A stretch of 64,000 bases of DNA, taken from the NCBI RefSeq assembly GCF_000407165.1, contig NZ_KE136479.1:1251464-1315463 (forward strand), written 5' to 3'. Positions 3,145 to 33,592 of this stretch are shown in pieces. The notes beneath the pieces were generated by a model. It saw only the letters and a program-made list of their open reading frames with translations, was not told the origin of the DNA and ran no database searches. The position numbers and the translations under genes are program-made. Source of the stretch: Enterococcus haemoperoxidus ATCC BAA-382 (GTDB lineage: Bacteria; Bacillota; Bacilli; Lactobacillales; Enterococcaceae). The number at the start of each line of letters is the position of its first letter. Position 1 is the stretch's first letter.

Positions 3145-3270
3145 AGGTTCGTCTTCAGGGGCAGGGTGAAATTCCCGACCGGTGGTTATAGTCCACGACC
3201 TACTTCATTTGAAGTGGCTGAATTGGTGAAATTCCAATACCGACAGTAAAGTCTGGATAAAGAAGATAGG
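3145..3270 (+). ncRNA. FMN riboswitch (RFN element)
   Basis: Contains the conserved RFN blocks in order: GTCTTCAGGGGCAGGGTG, AATTCCCGACCGG, the GGTGGTTATAGTCCACGAC segment, a variable stem, then GGTGAAATTCCAATACCGAC and AGTCTGGAT. These match the FMN-binding aptamer found before riboflavin synthesis or uptake genes. A terminator hairpin follows, as expected for transcriptional control, and the next gene is the riboflavin transporter ribU. Confidence 0.95.
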
Positions 3271-3309
3271 GCTTATTTGAATTGGCATTTTTCAGATAAG
3301 ATAACTCTA

Positions 3310-24601: not shown

Positions 24602-24928
24602 ATGGTGAAAAAAAATAATGGACCAAAAATACAAGAAGAAAAGCGAACCATCATTGCAATGATCGATATCTATTATAAAAAACATAAAGAACCTGCAATC
24701 GATAAACAAACGTTGTTGTCTTACTCACAGCTTCGATTGGATGTTTGTCGGTTTGGGGAGGAAAAGCCCACTTGTAAACAGTGTCCGGTACATTGTTATC
24801 GCCCCGATTACAAAGAACAAATGAAACAAGTGATGAGATACTCCGGACCAAGAATGTTACTTTATCATCCTATTTTAGCTGTAAAACATCTTTTAAAAGA
24901 AAATAAAAGTAAAAAAATTAAAGTATGA
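24602..24928 (+). CDS. YgbA-like (nitrous oxide-stimulated promoter) family protein
   Basis: 108 residues from ATG 24602; a GTG at 24593 is an alternative. Conserved features: RTIIAMIDIYYKKH, a cysteine cluster CRFGEEKPTCKQCPVHCY, and MRYSGPRMLLYHPILAVKH. These match the small YgbA family first noted for a gene with a nitrous-oxide/NO-responsive promoter. The five cysteines suggest a metal or redox role, which is inference. Located immediately before the aromatic operon promoter. Confidence 0.8.
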   Translation: MVKKNNGPKIQEEKRTIIAMIDIYYKKHKEPAIDKQTLLSYSQLRLDVCRFGEEKPTCKQCPVHCYRPDYKEQMKQVMRYSGPRMLLYHPILAVKHLLKENKSKKIKV

Positions 24929-24999
24929 TGAACACGCATAATTACTAGTTTTTATTTTAAAAAAACTAGAAAAAATAAAAGAATAAGTAACAAAATAGG

Positions 25000-25028
25000 T
25001 TGACACGTCGTTGGCCTAGGTATATACT
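25000..25028 (+). promoter_or_regulatory. Promoter of the aromatic amino acid operon
   Basis: Perfect TTGACA, 17-base spacer, TATACT. It precedes the aromatic-rich leader peptide by 41 bases, the strongest sigma-A promoter seen in the window. Confidence 0.85.
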
Positions 25029-25068
25029 GAGAACAATTCTTAAATAAATCAGTTACGGAGTGATTCAT

Positions 25069-25131
25069 ATGACAACCATGAAGCATAACCAATTACAACT
25101 GAATAATTATTACTTTAGCTATTTTAGATGA
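25069..25131 (+). CDS. Tyr/Phe-rich leader peptide of the aro operon
   Basis: 20-codon ORF with a well spaced GGAG (eight bases) behind a strong promoter. The peptide ends NNYYFSYFR: five of six consecutive residues (YYFSYF) are Tyr or Phe. Two terminator-type hairpins lie between it and aroE, the first gene of a complete aromatic amino acid operon. This is the arrangement expected when ribosome stalling at Tyr/Phe codons controls transcription attenuation. The peptide itself would have no other function. Confidence 0.75.
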   Translation: MTTMKHNQLQLNNYYFSYFR

Positions 25132-25174
25132 GTTTGTATTCATAACATTATGGATGCAGACTAGCAAGTTTGTA

Positions 25175-25243
25175 TCTATGATGGCTAGGGGATTTCGAGA
25201 TGACTTTCAGCCGCGTAGATGAGAAAATCTATAGTGGCTTTTA
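25175..25243 (+). promoter_or_regulatory. First attenuator hairpin with alternative pairing
   Basis: AGCCGCGTAGAT (25209-25220) pairs with ATCTATAGTGGCT (25227-25239), followed by four T. An upstream near-copy of the right arm, TCTATGATGGCT (25175-25186), can pair with the same left arm, giving mutually exclusive structures. Confidence 0.55.
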
Positions 25244-25261
25244 TATTACCTATTTTTTGTG

Positions 25262-25309
25262 AGGTGTTCACTGTAGATTTTTCTGAAAATTTACGTGAAT
25301 ACCTTTTTT
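25262..25309 (+). terminator. Strong attenuator terminator before aroE
   Basis: AGGTGTTCAC/GTGAATACCT plus inner GTAGATTTT/AAAATTTAC (19 pairs, two G-U, one bulge) and a run of six T, all 35 bases before the aroE ATG. A terminator between the promoter and the first gene implies regulated readthrough. Confidence 0.85.
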
Positions 25310-25343
25310 GTTTGAGAAAAATCGCTTTTGAGGAGGAACTAGG

Positions 25344-26213
25344 ATGGAAAATACGATTACAGGACACACAAGATTAGCTGCATTATTTGCAACACCGATT
25401 CGTCACAGTGTTTCACCAATGATCCATAATACAGCTTTTCAAGCATTAGGAATCGACGCGGTATATTTGGCTTTTGAAGTAGGGACAGATGGGTTAGAGC
25501 GAGCGATTGATTCAATCAAAAATTTGGAAATGATCGGTGCAAATTTGTCGATGCCCAATAAAATTTTGGCTGTCGAATATATGGATGAATTAAGTGAAGC
25601 GGCTCGTTTGATTGGTGCGGTTAACACTATCACCAACGATCAGGGGAAATTAACCGGACATAATACTGATGGAACTGGCTTTATGAGAAGTTTGCAAGAT
25701 ATCGATGTTGACATTATTGGTAAAAAAATAACAATTATCGGAGCAGGTGGTGCAGCTACAGCGATTATTGTTCAAGCGGCTTTAGATGGGGTCAAAGAAA
25801 TCACGGTTTACAATCGTAAAGATGATTTTTACGACAAAATCAAAGCAAAGCTAGCTTATATTTCTGAAAATACAAACTGTGCCATTACCTTGTATGATTT
25901 ATCTGATGAAAATCGCCTATCTAAAGATGTGGCAGAAAGTACGTTATTATTAAATGCAACTGGTGTTGGAATGAAGCCATTAGAAGGACAGACACCAATA
26001 CAAGATTTTTCTATCATTCGTCCAGATCTCGCTGTCTGTGACGTCATCTATACACCAAGAGAAACTGAATTTCTTAAACAAGCTCGTATACGTGGCGCTA
26101 AAACCAATAACGGCTTGGGTATGTTGCTTTATCAAGGTGCTGCAGCGTTTGAAAAGTGGACAGGACAAGAAATGCCAATAGAAATCGTAAAACCAATTAT
26201 AGAAAATAACTAA
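25344..26213 (+). CDS. aroE: Shikimate dehydrogenase
   Basis: 289 residues, reduces 3-dehydroshikimate to shikimate with NADPH. ATPIRHSVSPMIHNTAFQAL is the substrate-binding motif; NLSMPNKI carries a Met where many enzymes have NVTVPHK-type sequence, but the Lys (MPNK) is in register. HNTDGTGF binds shikimate and GAGGAATAIIVQAA is the dinucleotide loop; NNGLGMLLYQGAAAFE ends it. First gene of the eight-gene aro operon, directly downstream of the attenuator. Confidence 0.95.
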   Translation: MENTITGHTRLAALFATPIRHSVSPMIHNTAFQALGIDAVYLAFEVGTDGLERAIDSIKNLEMIGANLSMPNKILAVEYMDELSEAARLIGAVNTITNDQGKLTGHNTDGTGFMRSLQDIDVDIIGKKITIIGAGGAATAIIVQAALDGVKEITVYNRKDDFYDKIKAKLAYISENTNCAITLYDLSDENRLSKDVAESTLLLNATGVGMKPLEGQTPIQDFSIIRPDLAVCDVIYTPRETEFLKQARIRGAKTNNGLGMLLYQGAAAFEKWTGQEMPIEIVKPIIENN

Positions 26214-26240
26214 ATTAAATTGACTGAAGGAGAGAACAAC

Positions 26241-27263
26241 ATGATCGTAATTATGAAATCAGAAGCAACGAAAGCACAAATCAAATCGGTGATCGAACGA
26301 GTGAAAAAAGAGGGACTAGAAGTTCATCTAAGCGAAGGGAAAGAACAAACAATCATTGGCTTGGTTGGTGACACAAGAAAAATGCAAGATGTGGCATTTA
26401 ATAGTTACGATGGTGTTGAAAATGCAGTTAGAATATCGTTGACATACAAACTGACAAGTCGTGAGTTTCATCCAGAAAATACGATTGTTGATGTTGATGG
26501 TGTAAAAATCGGTGATGGTAGTATGACGATGATGGCAGGCCCATGTTCAATCGAAAGTTTAGACCAAATTCGAGAATGTGCGAGAATTGCTAAAGCAGGC
26601 GGTGCAACTATTTTGCGAGGCGGCGCTTTTAAACCAAGAACATCACCCTATGCTTTTCAAGGATTAGAAGAAGAAGGTCTAAAATACATTCGCCAAGCAG
26701 CAGATGAATTTGATATGAAAGTTATTACAGAAGTTATGGATGAAGCACACATCGATATGATTGCCCAATACAGTGATATTTTACAAATTGGTGCTAGAAA
26801 TATGCAAAACTTCAAATTGTTACAAGCTGTCGGGAAAACGGGGAAACCAATTGGCTTAAAACGTGGTATTTCTGGTACAATTGATGAGTGGTTAAATGCT
26901 GCAGAGTACATCGCTGCCCAAGGAAACTTCAATGTTATTTTTATCGAGCGTGGTATTCGGACTTACGAAACCGCAACTCGTAATACACTTGATTTGAGCG
27001 CAGTTCCATTAATTAAAAAATTAAGCCATTTTCCAATTATTGTTGATCCAAGTCACGGTGTAGGAATTTGGGATCTTGTACCATCAATGGCACGTGCAGG
27101 TATTGCAGCAGGGGCTGATGGTTTGATTGTTGAGATTCATCCAGATCCAATCAACGCTTGGTCTGACGGTCCACAATCATTAAACGAAAAAACATACATG
27201 CGTATGATGGAAGAAGTTCATATCATTGAAAAAGCTATGAAAGAAATTAACGCGTTAGGGTAA
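26241..27263 (+). CDS. aroF: 3-deoxy-7-phosphoheptulonate (DAHP) synthase, type I beta
   Basis: 340 residues from ATG 26241, with GAAGGAGAG upstream; a TTG at 26220 is a poorer start. First committed step: PEP plus erythrose 4-phosphate to DAHP. Residues 1-70 are a ferredoxin-like regulatory domain of the kind fused to Thermotoga-type enzymes; the barrel carries MMAGPCSIES, FKPRTSPYAFQG, QIGARNMQNF and VDPSHGVG (metal and substrate residues). The regulatory domain implies feedback control by Tyr or Phe. Symbol follows the type-I-beta naming (also called aroA(f)). Confidence 0.94.
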   Translation: MIVIMKSEATKAQIKSVIERVKKEGLEVHLSEGKEQTIIGLVGDTRKMQDVAFNSYDGVENAVRISLTYKLTSREFHPENTIVDVDGVKIGDGSMTMMAGPCSIESLDQIRECARIAKAGGATILRGGAFKPRTSPYAFQGLEEEGLKYIRQAADEFDMKVITEVMDEAHIDMIAQYSDILQIGARNMQNFKLLQAVGKTGKPIGLKRGISGTIDEWLNAAEYIAAQGNFNVIFIERGIRTYETATRNTLDLSAVPLIKKLSHFPIIVDPSHGVGIWDLVPSMARAGIAAGADGLIVEIHPDPINAWSDGPQSLNEKTYMRMMEEVHIIEKAMKEINALG

Positions 27264-27330
27264 AGAATGAAGTAATCTGGGTAGTAACGGAAGGTTATTG
27301 TTTTCTCATAAAAAAAAGGAGTTGAAGTAA

Positions 27331-28392
27331 TTGAAACTGACGGTAAATTTACCAAATCACTCTTATGATCTAGTCATTGAAAATGGTTTGTTAAAAAATA
27401 TTGGCTCTTGGGCAAAAGAACTGTGGTCACCCCAAAAGATCGTAATCATAACAGATACAAACGTTCGTCCTTTGTACGGTGATCAAGTTTACAAAAGTTT
27501 GAAAGAAGCAGGATTTGAGCCGTCAACATTTGTAATTGATGCTGGTGAGCAAAGTAAAAGTTTGTCTGTAGCTGCTGAAATTTATGATTTTCTAGCAGAT
27601 GAAGGAATGACTAGAAGCGATGGAATTATTGCTTTAGGTGGTGGAGTTGTTGGAGATTTGGCTGGTTTTGTCGCTTCAACATATATGCGAGGTCTTCATT
27701 TTTTACAAGTTCCAACCACATTATTGGCTCAAGTGGATAGTAGTATTGGCGGGAAAACTGCTGTTAATACAACCAAAGCAAAAAATTTAGTAGGTACATT
27801 TGCTCAACCAGATGGTGTTTTGATTGATCCTGATACCTTGAATACGTTGGAAGTAAGACGTATTCGAGAAGGAATCGCTGAAATTATCAAATCTGCCGCT
27901 ATCGCAGATGAGAGCTTATGGCAAAAGTTAGGTGCACTAACTGATGAGAATGATCTAAGAGCACATGCAACAGAAATTATTGCATCTTGTTGTAAAATAA
28001 AGCGAAGTGTTGTGGAAGAAGATGAACTTGACAACGGAGTACGTTTACTTCTCAATTTTGGTCATACAATCGGTCATGCACTGGAAAATACCGCTGGATA
28101 TGGTAATTTAACTCATGGTGAAGGCGTCGCAATCGGGATGAGTCAAATCACAAAAGTTGCCGAACAGAAAAATTTGACTCCAGTTGGTACAACAGAACAA
28201 TTAAATAAAATGATTCAAAAATTTCATCTACCTGTGACATCGAATCATTGGAATCAAGAGCAATTGTATACTGCATTGACTCATGATAAGAAGACACGTG
28301 GCGGAAAAATCAATATTATTTTATTGGAGTCAATCGGTAAAGCAAAAATCGTTCGGATTCCAATCGAAGAAATGAAGAGTTATTTAAATTAG
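27331..28392 (+). CDS. aroB: 3-dehydroquinate synthase
   Basis: 353 residues, TTG start after AAAGGAGTTGAAGTAA. Converts DAHP to 3-dehydroquinate using NAD and a divalent metal. ALGGGVVGDLAGFVA is the NAD loop, VPTTLLAQVDSSIGGKTAVN the phosphate site, REGIAEIIK the metal Glu and LNFGHTIGHALE plus LTHGEGVAIGM the metal His residues. All catalytic motifs are intact, in contrast to the paralogue at 16237-17283. Confidence 0.97.
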   Translation: MKLTVNLPNHSYDLVIENGLLKNIGSWAKELWSPQKIVIITDTNVRPLYGDQVYKSLKEAGFEPSTFVIDAGEQSKSLSVAAEIYDFLADEGMTRSDGIIALGGGVVGDLAGFVASTYMRGLHFLQVPTTLLAQVDSSIGGKTAVNTTKAKNLVGTFAQPDGVLIDPDTLNTLEVRRIREGIAEIIKSAAIADESLWQKLGALTDENDLRAHATEIIASCCKIKRSVVEEDELDNGVRLLLNFGHTIGHALENTAGYGNLTHGEGVAIGMSQITKVAEQKNLTPVGTTEQLNKMIQKFHLPVTSNHWNQEQLYTALTHDKKTRGGKINIILLESIGKAKIVRIPIEEMKSYLN

Positions 28393-28583
28393 CTAGCTAC
28401 AAGGGCTAGCACCACGCTCTGCTTTGATCGCAACAATTTCTATGAGCTACAGCCCTTAGGATTGAAGGTCTTAAGAAAAAAGACAAAAATTGAATGTGAC
28501 AAAAAGCATTACGTTCAACTTCGACTATTTTTCTGTCAGAGCTGGACAAAGCCGTTACGCTTTTAAATTTAGGAGGAAATCAT
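28393..28583 (+). other. Structured 190-base spacer between aroB and aroC
   Basis: Unusually long gap inside an otherwise tight operon. Two exclusive stems are possible: GCTAGC-N7-GCTAGC, or AAGGGCT with AGCCCTT about 45 bases later; a third stem TTGAATGT/ACGTTCAA lies further down. No run of T follows. No known RNA family recognised. An ORF crossing it is out of frame with aroC and not credible. Confidence 0.45.
28558..28576 (+). repeat. 19-base ribosome-binding repeat, copy 1 (aroC)
   Basis: CGCTTTTAAATTTAGGAGG, identical to 30907-30925 before aroA; contains the Shine-Dalgarno sequence. Confidence 0.85.
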
Positions 28584-29750
28584 ATGCGTTTTATTACAGC
28601 GGGAGAATCACATGGACCAGAATTAACAGCAATAATAGAAGGCTTACCAGCTGGGTTGCCGTTATCGCCAGAAGATATTAATTTAGAGTTAGCTAGAAGA
28701 CAAGGTGGATATGGCCGTGGCGGCAGAATGTTGATTGAAAAAGATCAAGTAAGAATCACTTCCGGTATTCGTCACGGCAAAACACTAGGATCACCGGTCA
28801 CACTTGTCGTTGAAAATAAAGATTGGAAAAATTGGACTTCTGTCATGTCAATTGATGAAGTTTCTGAGAAAGAAAAAAAAATCCGACGAGTAAATAAACC
28901 ACGCCCAGGACATGCAGATCTTGTCGGTGGTATCAAATACCAGCATGATGATCTTAGAAATGTACTAGAACGTTCATCAGCGCGTGAAACAACGATGCGA
29001 GTTGCAATAGGAGCAATCGCTAAAAAGTTACTGAAGGAACTGGATATTGAAGTAGCAGGACATGTTGCGATCTTAGGTGGTATCAAAGCTGAAATCCCAG
29101 ATAACTTAACGGTCAAAGAAATTCAAGAACGCTCAGAAAATTCAGATGTGCGTGTTCTTGATTCATCAGTCGAACAAGAAATTCGCGACTTAATTGATAA
29201 GACAAAGAAAAATGGTGATACGATCGGTGGCGTAGTAGAAGTCGTGGTTGGTGGTGTACCAATTGGTTTAGGTAGCTATGTTCAGTGGGATCGCAAATTA
29301 GATGCCAGAATTGCCCAAGCGGTTACGAGTATCAATGCATTTAAGGGCGTTGAGTTTGGGATTGGATTTGAAATGGGCTTTAAACCAGGTAGCCAAGTCA
29401 TGGACGAAATTGTTTGGGATAAAGCAACTGGGTATACAAGAACATCGAACAATCTTGGCGGTTTTGAAGGTGGTATGACAAATGGAATGCCAATTGTTGT
29501 TAGAGGTGTTATGAAGCCTATTCCAACGTTATATAAGCCATTACAAAGTGTCAACATTGATACAAAAGAACCTTATAAAGCAAGTGTTGAGCGGTCGGAT
29601 AGCACGGCTGTTCCGGCTGCAAGTGTCGTTTGTGAAGCTGTGGTCGCAACAGAAGTTGCCCAAGCAATGTTGGAAAAATTTGGCAGTGATTCATTTGAAC
29701 AAATGAAAGAAGAAGTTGAATCTTATCGCCGTTATACTCAAACGTTTTAA
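28584..29750 (+). CDS. aroC: Chorismate synthase
   Basis: 388 residues; trans-eliminates phosphate from EPSP to give chorismate with reduced FMN. Signatures [52 protein letters not shown] and the C-terminal [15 protein letters not shown] are all present. Full length. The RBS AGGAGG lies in a 19-base sequence repeated before aroA. Confidence 0.98.
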
Positions 29751-29780
29751 CTAAAACAAAAAAATGGAGAGTGAAGCGGA

Positions 29781-30878
29781 ATGGATAAAAAAGTTTTGAT
29801 TATCGGTCTAGGTTTGATAGGTAGTTCATTAGCATTATGTATAAAAAAAGAACATCCATTTACAACGGTTATTGGAATAGATAATCAAGTAACTTCAGAA
29901 GAATTTGCTTTAAAAAGAAACATTATCGATCAAATAGGCAGTTCTTTGGAAACAGAAGCTGTGCAAGCAGACATCATTTTCCTGTGCACACCTGTTAAAA
30001 GCATGTTGAAACAATTAAACGTTTTAGGTACTTTATCGTTAAAACAAGATGTGATTATTTCTGACGTAGGTAGTACGAAACGAGAGATTGTTCAAGTAGC
30101 TAAAAAGTCTGGATTAAAAACATTTATTGGTGGACATCCAATGGCTGGATCACATAAATCAGGTGTGACCGCAGCTGATGAAAATTTATTTGAGAATGCT
30201 TATTATATTTTAGCTTCCTCAGAAGTAGAGAAACAAAGTCAAATCAAAGAATTACAAACCTTGTTACAAGGAACACGAGCAAAATTTGTTGTTCTTACAG
30301 CTGAAGAACATGATCAGATTACAGGAATGCTCAGTCATTTACCTCATATTATCGCAGCTGGATTGGTAAATCAAAGTAAGATCTTTAATGATGAGCACCC
30401 CCGATCACGACAATTAGCGGCTGGTGGTTTTCGAGATATCACAAGAATTGCTTCATCTGATCCGCAAATGTGGACGGATATTCTACTAAGTAATAAAGAG
30501 AGCTTGCTAACGTTAATGAACGCGTGGCAAGCTGAAATGGACCAAGTTTCAACTTGGATTCAAACCGAAAATAAAGAGGCTATTTTTCAATTTTTTTATG
30601 AAGCAAAAGAGACGAGAAATCAAATGCCTGTTCACAAAGAAGGTGCAATTCCGGCATTCCATGATTTATTTGTGGATGTTCCTGATGTTCCAGGGGTCAT
30701 TGCGGAGATCACAGGGTTACTTGGCAAAGCAAAACTATCCTTGATTAATTTGAAAATTCTTGAAACGAGAGAAGATATCTATGGTATCTTACAATTAACG
30801 TTTAAACGTCAAGAAGATTTGGAAAAAGCAAAGGATTGCATTAAAAAGCAAACGAATTATTTATGCTATGAAAAATGA
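29781..30878 (+). CDS. tyrA: Prephenate dehydrogenase
   Basis: 365 residues; NAD-dependent oxidative decarboxylation of prephenate to 4-hydroxyphenylpyruvate for tyrosine. N-terminal Rossmann loop IIGLGLIGSSLAL, active-site IGGHPMAGSHKSGV and MLSHLPHIIAAGL. The C-terminal ~70 residues (PDVPGVIAEITGLLGKAKLS) form an ACT domain, suggesting Tyr feedback. Lies between aroC and aroA in the operon. Confidence 0.96.
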   Translation: MDKKVLIIGLGLIGSSLALCIKKEHPFTTVIGIDNQVTSEEFALKRNIIDQIGSSLETEAVQADIIFLCTPVKSMLKQLNVLGTLSLKQDVIISDVGSTKREIVQVAKKSGLKTFIGGHPMAGSHKSGVTAADENLFENAYYILASSEVEKQSQIKELQTLLQGTRAKFVVLTAEEHDQITGMLSHLPHIIAAGLVNQSKIFNDEHPRSRQLAAGGFRDITRIASSDPQMWTDILLSNKESLLTLMNAWQAEMDQVSTWIQTENKEAIFQFFYEAKETRNQMPVHKEGAIPAFHDLFVDVPDVPGVIAEITGLLGKAKLSLINLKILETREDIYGILQLTFKRQEDLEKAKDCIKKQTNYLCYEK

Positions 30879-30895
30879 GTAAGGACAAAAATTAA

Positions 30896-32215
<1,320 letters not shown>

Positions 32216-32227
32216 ACGGAGGAACGA

Positions 32228-32731
32228 ATGATGAAGGGGATTATTTTAATTGGTTTTATGGGAGCCGGGAAAACAACAGTCGGGAAACTTCTTTCAGAAA
32301 AAACAGGGATGGAACATATCGATTTTGATGATAAAATCGTTGAAGAAATTGGTATGACAATTCAAGAATATTTTGATTTACATGGTGAAGATGCATTTAG
32401 AGAAAGAGAAACAAATGTTTTAAAACGTTATTTAGACCATGATCAAGTAGTATCAACTGGTGGCGGAATCGTAATGAGGTCTGAGAATCGAGAACTTTTA
32501 AAACAAATGGCACCCGTTATTTATTTACAAACCAAACCAGAAGTATTCATTCCAAGGTTAAAACACGATCATACGACTGTTAGACCTTTAGTTGTATCAA
32601 AATCACCAGAAGAAATCAAACAAGTTTTTGAGCCAAGGATTCCGTTTTATGAAGAAAGTGCCAGCTTAGTGGTTGCCACTGATAATCGTACACCTGAGGA
32701 AATCGTCCATGAAATTTTAAAAAATATATAA
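32228..32731 (+). CDS. aroK: Shikimate kinase
   Basis: 167 residues (166 if the second ATG at 32231 is used). ATP-dependent phosphorylation of shikimate. Walker A GFMGAGKTTVGKLL, the DFDDKIVEEIGMTIQEYFD shikimate site, FRERETNVLKR and STGGGIVM are all present, and the lid region contains TVRPLV. It sits twelve bases after aroA and twelve before pheA, so the three are tightly coupled. Confidence 0.96.
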   Translation: MMKGIILIGFMGAGKTTVGKLLSEKTGMEHIDFDDKIVEEIGMTIQEYFDLHGEDAFRERETNVLKRYLDHDQVVSTGGGIVMRSENRELLKQMAPVIYLQTKPEVFIPRLKHDHTTVRPLVVSKSPEEIKQVFEPRIPFYEESASLVVATDNRTPEEIVHEILKNI

Positions 32732-32743
32732 GTAGGTGAGCAA

Positions 32744-33592
32744 ATGAAAGTCGGTTTTTTAGGTCCAGAAGCTTCTTTTACTCATAACGCAACAAAAACT
32801 GCTTTTCCAAATGAAGAATTGATTTCTTATCATTCGATTCCAGCTTGTATTAAAGGAGTTGAGTTTGGCGAGGTTGATTTAGGGGTTGTTCCAATTGAAA
32901 ATACGATAGAAGGGTCTGTTAATACTACAGTAGACTATCTTTTTCATCAAACAACAATTCCAGTAGGGGCGGAAATCGTTCTGCCAATCTATCAACAATT
33001 GATGGTAGCAAAAGAAAACAAGGGAGCCTGGCAAGAAACAAGCAAAATTTTGTCTCATCCTCAAGCTTTAGCACAATCTCAGGAATTTATCCGTACCTAT
33101 TTTCCAATGGCTGAACTTGAAGCAACACCATCTACTGCCTATGCTGCAAGTTTTGTGGCGAGTCATCCAGATCAAAAAATCGCGGCTATTGCACCAAAAC
33201 TTTCCGCTGAAAAATATGATCTTGAAATTGTTGGCAAAGACATTCAGGATGTAGCAATTAATCAGACTAGGTTTTGGGTCATAGGATCTGAAAAAGTCGA
33301 AGTACCAATCGAATCTACCAACCAAAAACTAACGATTGCATTAACGATGCCAAATAACATGCCAGGAGCATTACACAAAGCGTTATCGGCCTTCAGTTGG
33401 CGAGAAATTGATTTAAGTAAAATTGAATCACGACCATTAAAAACAACTTTAGGTGAATATTTCTTTTTAATTGATATTAATGTTCAAAAACCGCAACGAT
33501 TACTAGAGAATGCTTTAGAAGAAATACGTTTAATGGGCGGATCAGTGAAAATATTCGGAAATTATGCAATTCACCCAATCGACGGAGTATAA
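32744..33592 (+). CDS. pheA: Prephenate dehydratase
   Basis: 282 residues; converts prephenate to phenylpyruvate for phenylalanine. The N-terminal periplasmic-binding-like catalytic fold contains VPIENTIEGSVNTTVDYLF and NQTRFWVIG (the TRF motif). The C-terminal ACT domain (NNMPGALHKALSAFSWREID, IESRPLKTTLGEYFFLIDI) carries the ESRP signature for Phe allostery. No chorismate mutase domain is fused, and none of the aro-operon genes looks like a separate one. Last gene of the aro operon. Confidence 0.96.
   Translation: MKVGFLGPEASFTHNATKTAFPNEELISYHSIPACIKGVEFGEVDLGVVPIENTIEGSVNTTVDYLFHQTTIPVGAEIVLPIYQQLMVAKENKGAWQETSKILSHPQALAQSQEFIRTYFPMAELEATPSTAYAASFVASHPDQKIAAIAPKLSAEKYDLEIVGKDIQDVAINQTRFWVIGSEKVEVPIESTNQKLTIALTMPNNMPGALHKALSAFSWREIDLSKIESRPLKTTLGEYFFLIDINVQKPQRLLENALEEIRLMGGSVKIFGNYAIHPIDGV

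Follow-up and report, generated by a model that had tools for sequence, protein, structure and literature searches.

The window, a stretch of 64,000 nucleotides from Enterococcus haemoperoxidus ATCC BAA-382, carries on its forward strand an aromatic amino acid operon of eight genes (25344-33592). The first of these, aroE (25344..26213), is followed by aroF, aroB, aroC, tyrA, aroA, aroK, and pheA (26241..33592), and the Pfam families of the listed open reading frames (ORFs) are those expected for these names, with aroF encoding DAHP synthase. This agrees with an earlier note on this DNA, which had described a Phe/Tyr pathway operon beginning at aroE. The operon comprises the common aromatic pathway together with the Tyr and Phe branches, and genes of the Trp branch are absent. 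The same genome contains a second aroE-like gene (G000:C1:1207131-1207991) with 53% identity to the operon copy. The sole Rfam match at gathering within the window is an FMN riboswitch at 3147-3271 (101.5 bits).

The region preceding aroE opens with a sigma-70 type promoter, TTGACA-17-TATACT (25000..25028, forward strand), which matches 11 of 12 consensus positions and whose position is kept in relatives. Promoter-like sites of at least 9 of 12 matches number three, with 3.7 expected, and are weak evidence when taken alone; 105 of 108 non-redundant Tyr/Phe elements, however, have a site of at least 10 of 12 upstream, compared with 5.3% of two-base-block shuffles. Behind the promoter, a Shine-Dalgarno motif, GGAG (25057..25060, forward strand), precedes a leader ORF of 20 codons from ATG to TGA (25069..25131, forward strand; MTTMKHNQLQLNNYYFSYFR), which was recognized in the sequence, by pattern search, and in relatives, and in which Tyr and Phe codons occupy positions 14, 15, 16, 18, and 19. 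The consensus promoter and the 20-codon ORF with its ribosome binding site, both proposed in the earlier note, are thus present as described.

Eight RNA segments, all on the forward strand, were delimited from the last leader codons onward by folding and helix comparison. Segment A (25114..25131) consists of the last leader codons and pairs with B, A0 (25132..25145) is the left arm of a hairpin straight after the stop codon, and A1 (25148..25161) has either A0 or B as its partner. Segment B (25167..25189), also examined in the class test described below, can pair with A, A1, or C, while C (25208..25222) can pair with B or D. Segment D (25223..25240) pairs with C or, as an antiterminator, with E (25263..25284), and E pairs with D or, as a terminator, with F; both D and E were additionally identified by repeat search and covariation. 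Segment F (25287..25306), visible in the sequence itself, forms the 3' arm of an intrinsic terminator and is followed by a T run. B recurs as a direct repeat in D (ATCTATGATGGCT / ATCTATAGTGGCT), and 13 bases of D are complementary to E, a combination that constitutes a signature of alternative pairing.

The terminator hairpins that had been placed directly before aroE gained mixed support, as a simple terminator scan of 24700-25600 returned no site and folding sustained the claim. The transcript 25037-25343 folds at -87.9 kcal/mol, compared with a shuffle mean of -59.8 kcal/mol (z -6.3; none of 100 shuffles equal), and the arms 25263-25284 and 25287-25306 fold into a hairpin of 17 pairs, followed by a T run. 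Folding was also performed with a ribosome on the leader, its edge being assumed to lie 12 bases past the first base of the A site. Free RNA is predicted to adopt A:B, A0:A1, C:D, and E:F. With a ribosome at Tyr14, Tyr15, Phe16, or Tyr18, the predicted helices are A0:A1 and B:C, joined by D:E after E has been made, while a ribosome at Phe19 or at the stop codon yields A1:B, joined by C:D and E:F after F has been made; a stall at Phe19 should accordingly have the outcome of a ribosome at the stop codon. At the stage at which D has just been made, the stalled states also favor A1:B and C:D. Since the full-length minimum-energy fold holds the terminator at every ribosome position, the on state would have to be kinetic, as is usual in other attenuators.

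These predictions can be assembled into a mechanism. RNA polymerase would start at about 25035, and a ribosome would then begin the 20-codon leader. Under a shortage of Tyr-tRNA or Phe-tRNA, the ribosome would stall at codons 14-18, covering A and leaving the A0:A1 hairpin free, so that B:C and D:E would form, the E:F terminator would be prevented, and the Tyr/Phe pathway operon would be read. When charged tRNA is ample, the ribosome would reach the stop codon and cover A0, allowing A1:B, C:D, and E:F to form and transcription to be terminated before aroE. A leader bearing no ribosome would fold into A:B and A0:A1 and lead to termination as well. The element may therefore occupy three states, namely untranslated and off, stalled and on, and finished and off.

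Aromatic genes of Firmicutes are commonly governed by T-box or TRAP control. In Streptococcus suis, a T-box controls trpX (PMC9382623). Such control has a negligible probability at the window leader, where a T-box was rejected after Rfam T-box models gave no match up to E 10 in 24900-25420, consistent with the absence of a T-box motif stated in the earlier note.

Conservation of the leader ORF, which the earlier note had put forward as a point to be checked, is evident among relatives. A similarity search for aroE, which matched in 51 of 60 genomes, supplied 30 loci, and 28 of them contain the leader core; the two loci lacking it (L028 and L030) come from genomes carrying a second aroE, which has a pattern match upstream in G056 and a weak RF04312 match upstream in G052. 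A degenerate pattern built on the final seven codons was found in 177 of 395 Lactobacillales genomes, counted among the matches listed and with chance matches included, and a reversed control pattern also matched some genomes. From 215 distinct pattern matches, 167 with a downstream B motif were retained, and removal of two chance matches (L205 from Borreliella and L242 from Flavobacteriaceae) left 165 elements; the 48 matches set aside for want of B include some plain members, such as L025, and some chance matches. In eight elements, the B motif was first placed too early (4-10 bases past the stop), and subsequent tests began the search at 30 bases. The elements originate from Enterococcus, Streptococcus, Lactobacillus, Vagococcus, Tetragenococcus, Aerococcus, Aliicoccus, Terrisporobacter, Clostridium, and others, and S. 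pneumoniae 19F is among the carriers (L291).

An in-frame start with a Shine-Dalgarno-like motif was found for 143 of the 165 leaders, whereas the two alternative frames gave 0 and 5 of 165. The remaining 22, which lack a clear Shine-Dalgarno motif, are mostly streptococcal and have an ATG behind a weak AAGAAAGCAG. The leader N-terminus varies in sequence and in length (17-26 residues among leaders with a Shine-Dalgarno start), and the frame, the start, and the C-terminal codons are kept. In Lactobacillales the last seven residues are almost invariant, a feature that favors nascent-peptide arrest, in which the peptide YYFSYFR would block the ribosome on sensing a free amino acid and not through slow decoding. 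The constancy, however, holds at the DNA level (TTTAGCTAYTTTAGATAG) and is explained by A:B pairing, and the leaders of clostridia, described below, end in different residues (FYFSYFS, FYFSYYS, AYYLSYYR, and FFNNHFR), which makes arrest by the peptide very improbable.

The helices were compared across 51 aro-type and 45 transporter-type non-redundant elements, corresponding to 96 of 108 after nine elements were dropped at D, two at B, and one at the terminator. The helices A:B, A0:A1, A1:B, B:C, C:D, D:E, and E:F, several of which are mutually exclusive, have mean duplex energies of -12.0 to -22.8 kcal/mol, compared with -4.5 to -6.9 kcal/mol for shuffled partners. The control pairings A:C, B:D, A1:C, B:E, C:E, and D:F range from -2.6 to -8.8 kcal/mol, at or near the shuffled values, and C:F, which lies outside the model, is moderately above background, with own partners better than swapped ones. 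Own partners surpass swapped partners in both groups for A0:A1, D:E, and E:F (0 of 5000 permutations) and also for C:D (20 and 0 of 5000), although the positions of C and E were defined by pairing with D and F, which biases C:D and E:F but leaves D:E, B:C, and A:B unaffected. For A:B and A1:B, this advantage is confined to the transporter group. B:C is strong in both groups, yet swapping partners does not weaken it, since B hardly varies; A:B is itself invariant among aro-type elements, and therefore neither A:B nor B:C shows covariation inside the Tyr/Phe class.

The antiterminator was further examined in an alignment of 49 aro-type D-E stretches, in which D:E is paired in 93.4% of cells, compared with 34-55% when slid. 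Double changes affect 5 of 13 pairs and 10 cells, whereas shuffling gives 2.0 and 3.8 (1 and 0 of 500 shuffles as high). Adding four Tetragenococcus-type rows (L116, L120, L250, and L261) raises these counts to 6 pairs and 14 cells; the four rows, which the 49-row count omits, were added by hand after the rule had missed them and their compensating change had already been seen, and L042 and L225, not being aro-type, are left out of both counts. The conclusion that D:E covaries stands without the four hand-added rows.

Taken together, a conserved short ORF with a ribosome binding site follows the promoter, its codons fit the regulated genes, and the exclusive helices are kept. With a probability of roughly 0.9, the region is a ribosome-mediated transcription attenuator.

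Two RNA families already deposited in Rfam resemble this element. The first is sRNA_2410 (RF02863), whose whole model aligns inside the window element at 25115-25294 with 56.5 bits, below the cut-off of 61. The cut-off is reached by 8 of 16 scanned loci and by L213, a second copy of L180, and the members above it are Tyr/Phe leaders. The best match stands before a transporter gene, whereas the window element stands before aro genes: in Enterococcus lactis, a close relative of E. faecium, the model reaches 206.4 bits at the version preceding the transporter gene and 73.7 bits at that preceding aroF, which suggests that the sRNA_2410 of E. faecium is itself the transporter version. In E. faecium, sRNA_2410 appeared as two short transcripts on Northern blots (PMC5593968), as expected for terminated leaders. 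The passages of that report available here describe it as a small RNA and contain no mention of an ORF (PMC5593968), while the model starts inside the leader codons. Because it begins there, the annotated 5' end of sRNA_2410 may be a processing end or a ribosome-protected end and not a transcription start. A trans-acting small RNA, as first reported, would be the product of premature termination, and both the filing of RF02863 as an sRNA and the two short transcripts (PMC5593968) speak for it; the fixed site before aromatic genes, the conserved leader ORF, and the helices alternative to the terminator fit a cis role instead and leave the trans-acting reading a very slight chance; a second role in trans may exist beside the cis role.

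The second family is the trpB motif (RF04312), which a 2024 study in NAR described as a strong riboswitch candidate, counting more than 900 representatives and assigning no ligand (PMC11109978). According to the available text of that study, the riboswitch class was proposed from structure and gene context, an antiterminator shoulder was noted, Fusobacteria were named among the carriers, and a classic attenuator was not ruled out (PMC11109978). The window element scores 35.1 bits against RF04312, under the cut-off of 59, with a full-length alignment (1-107), and it shares with the motif the platform stem CATAGATACAA / TTGTATCTATG (A1:B) and the next hairpin, C:D, in matching order. The two differ in that the window element has Tyr/Phe codons and a separate E:F terminator, whereas C:D is the terminator in the trpB motif.

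The published motif omits an ORF, but a leader ORF precedes the motif in the Trp loci of Lactobacillales. The sample comprised 30 loci and the next 59 listed matches in rank order, taken without gaps. A leader ORF was found in 88 of these 89 loci, 87 of which have Trp codons, and 86 contain a Shine-Dalgarno-led ORF with W[QNRHK] in the last 12 residues, compared with 0.009 per locus in dinucleotide shuffles; at least two Trp codons occur in 62 of the 86 leaders. The three exceptions are L356, with a Trp ORF that lacks a clear Shine-Dalgarno motif, L358, with a Tyr/Phe leader, and L350, which is unrelated. Downstream of the 89 loci lie binding proteins resembling PF04392 (80), trpB (5), an intron-coded ORF (1, L061), an unrelated gene (1, L350), and no listed ORF (2). 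In L061, pieces of a group II intron (1688-2004) are found directly 3' of the Trp-type element. Several RF04312 matches were rejected as unrelated, all of them leaderless (L350, L360/L364, L361, L362, and L363). The Trp version is also present in the genome of the window (L076, G000:C1:1189380-1189489), with the leader MNRLSNPIKELNNSWQNWRR before a TrpX-type binding protein.

Phylum-wide draws yielded little outside Lactobacillales and clostridial groups (5 of 299 and 2 of 249 genomes). RF04312 matches, all below the cut-off, were detected in 42 of 71 Peptostreptococcaceae and 19 of 116 Clostridiaceae genomes. When the ORF with the strongest residue run was chosen as the leader, all 59 fetched clostridial loci contained one: 25 His, 20 Tyr/Phe, 7 Leu, and 7 Phe-rich with Asn. 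A control demanding a Shine-Dalgarno motif retained 58 of 59 loci (L388 missing), compared with 0.0099 per locus in dinucleotide shuffles. The His leaders precede HisS/HisZ-like proteins (19) or a polar amino acid binding protein (6), the Tyr/Phe leaders BrnQ-like (13) or sodium-dependent (7) transporters, all seven Leu leaders sodium-dependent transporters, and the Phe-rich leaders with Asn sodium-dependent transporters (4) or ABC permeases (3). NCBIfam names, obtained for one representative each, are hisS, sodium-dependent transporter, livcs, and lysine/arginine/ornithine-type binding protein, and the representative ABC permease received no NCBIfam name. In the seven leaders of the Phe-rich type (L401, L403, L404, L407, L414, L420, and L421), Phe is mixed with Asn and with His or Gln (FFNNHFR, FFFNSQFR).

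Pairing of the leader with the platform was compared among six leader classes, and in all of them the best partner of A is B from its own class or from a class with matching specificity; clostridial Tyr/Phe leaders pair slightly better with the B of Lactobacillales Tyr/Phe leaders (-14.6) than with their own (-14.0). Elements whose platform word could not be located (22 Trp, 13 Tyr/Phe, 3 Leu, and 1 His) are excluded from the comparison. The result indicates that the 3' part of B varies in concert with the leader codons. Very probably, the trpB riboswitch candidate, the sRNA_2410 family, and the aro leader of the window are one modular leader-peptide attenuator chassis, with a constant platform (A0/A1/B and C:D), exchangeable codons, and a 3' part of B that changes with them, occurring in at least five versions (Trp, Tyr/Phe, Phe-rich, His, and Leu) in Lactobacillales, Peptostreptococcaceae, and Clostridiaceae. 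Thus, the attenuator that the earlier note had placed in Enterococcus aro operons is supported by comparison, and the scope given to it was too narrow, as the element extends to other genera, to genes other than aro, and to Trp, His, Leu, and Phe versions. A metabolite riboswitch, in which the RNA would directly bind an aromatic amino acid, can draw on the classification of the related trpB motif as a strong candidate from structure and gene context (PMC11109978). It is highly improbable here, given that a single platform is combined with Trp, Tyr/Phe, Phe, His, or Leu codons, each matching the downstream gene, and that the authors of the motif themselves left room for a classic attenuator (PMC11109978).

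The match between codons and genes is also apparent within the Tyr/Phe class and in the proteins encoded downstream. The first gene after the 165 Tyr/Phe elements encodes a substrate-binding protein of the PF04392 type in 84 cases, a family assigned by Pfam to one representative and to the others by similarity, followed by aroE (63), aroF (8), aroB (5), and aroC (1); another amino acid ABC binding protein, a BrnQ-like protein, a sodium-dependent transporter, and a transposase ORF occur once each. Downstream of Tyr/Phe leaders, trp genes are never found, nor are aro genes downstream of Trp leaders. In L116, a short ORF, judged by eye to be an IS200-type transposase, lies between the Tyr/Phe element and the next feature.

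In a FastTree phylogeny of 163 substrate-binding proteins, in which long branches were flagged, the leader type switches once, compared with a shuffled mean of 54.7 (0 of 500). Solved structures provide a reason for this split in a pocket residue: SP1069 of S. pneumoniae (3LFT) holds Trp with Gln284, and CD0873 of Clostridioides difficile (6HNI) holds Tyr with Tyr279 at the matching place (PMC6816091). Among the proteins reaching this column, Tyr is found in 60 of 60 of the Tyr/Phe type and Gln in 24 of 24 of the Trp type, the other 79 of the 163 being short or gapped there. The simple rule breaks down at a second pocket column (SP1069 Ala268 / CD0873 Glu263), where the Trp type has Val (23) and Ala (2) and the Tyr/Phe type has Ser (49), Phe (5), Asp (3), Ala (2), and Glu (1). 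The sequence of 3LFT scores 319.6 bits with a Trp-type protein and 194.6 bits with a Tyr/Phe-type protein, 6HNI scores 202.6 and 221.5 bits, respectively, and the Phe-bound 3LKV does not discriminate (195.8 and 199.1 bits). Two Trp-type proteins pass the NCBI TrpX model (469 and 442.8, cut-off 390), and one Tyr/Phe-type protein fails it (304.2).

The logic of the element has precedents. The enterobacterial his attenuator follows a six-segment logic in which A:B, C:D, and E:F alternate with B:C and D:E, and the pheA leader is rich in Phe. The window element resembles the former in its segments and the latter in its codons, and it differs from both in sequence, as neither was matched when the window was scanned against Rfam at gathering. 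To our knowledge, an extra A0:A1 hairpin past the stop codon has no counterpart in the enterobacterial his and pheA attenuators. Aromatic regulation in Gram-positive bacteria was reportedly treated by Panina et al. in 2003. Leader-peptide attenuation has been described in Firmicutes for the ilv-leu operon of Staphylococcus aureus (PMC5794164), for his operons (PMC9413887), and for hisS and hisZ of bacilli. The S. aureus leader is rich in Leu and is supported by mutants (PMC5794164); it concerns another amino acid and another operon, and what it shares with the window element is leader-peptide attenuation in a Firmicute. In Peptostreptococcaceae, His-rich leaders with a terminator and an antiterminator were reported before his genes (PMC9413887), and the His loci found there in the present analysis share the chassis with the window element. 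The available text of that report deals with his genes only, without connecting them to the trpB motif or to leaders with Trp, Tyr/Phe, or Leu codons (PMC9413887). Searches of the open-licence literature, from which subscription papers are mostly absent, returned no description of the Tyr/Phe leader or of a leader peptide for the trpB motif. As far as these searches show, three things are new: the Tyr/Phe leader, the presence of a leader ORF ahead of the trpB motif, and the grouping of all these elements into a single re-codable chassis.

Under this reading, one mechanism would account both for the orphan riboswitch candidate, of which more than 900 representatives were reported, and for an RNA that has been catalogued as a small RNA. 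Leader-peptide attenuation may then be a shared, re-codable module of Firmicutes, in a role comparable to that of the T-box specifier. If the chassis reading is true, the leader codons would label the substrate of otherwise unassigned transporters, and they would predict transporter cargo, as TrpX-like proteins split by leader into a Trp and a Tyr/Phe group in agreement with the solved structures.
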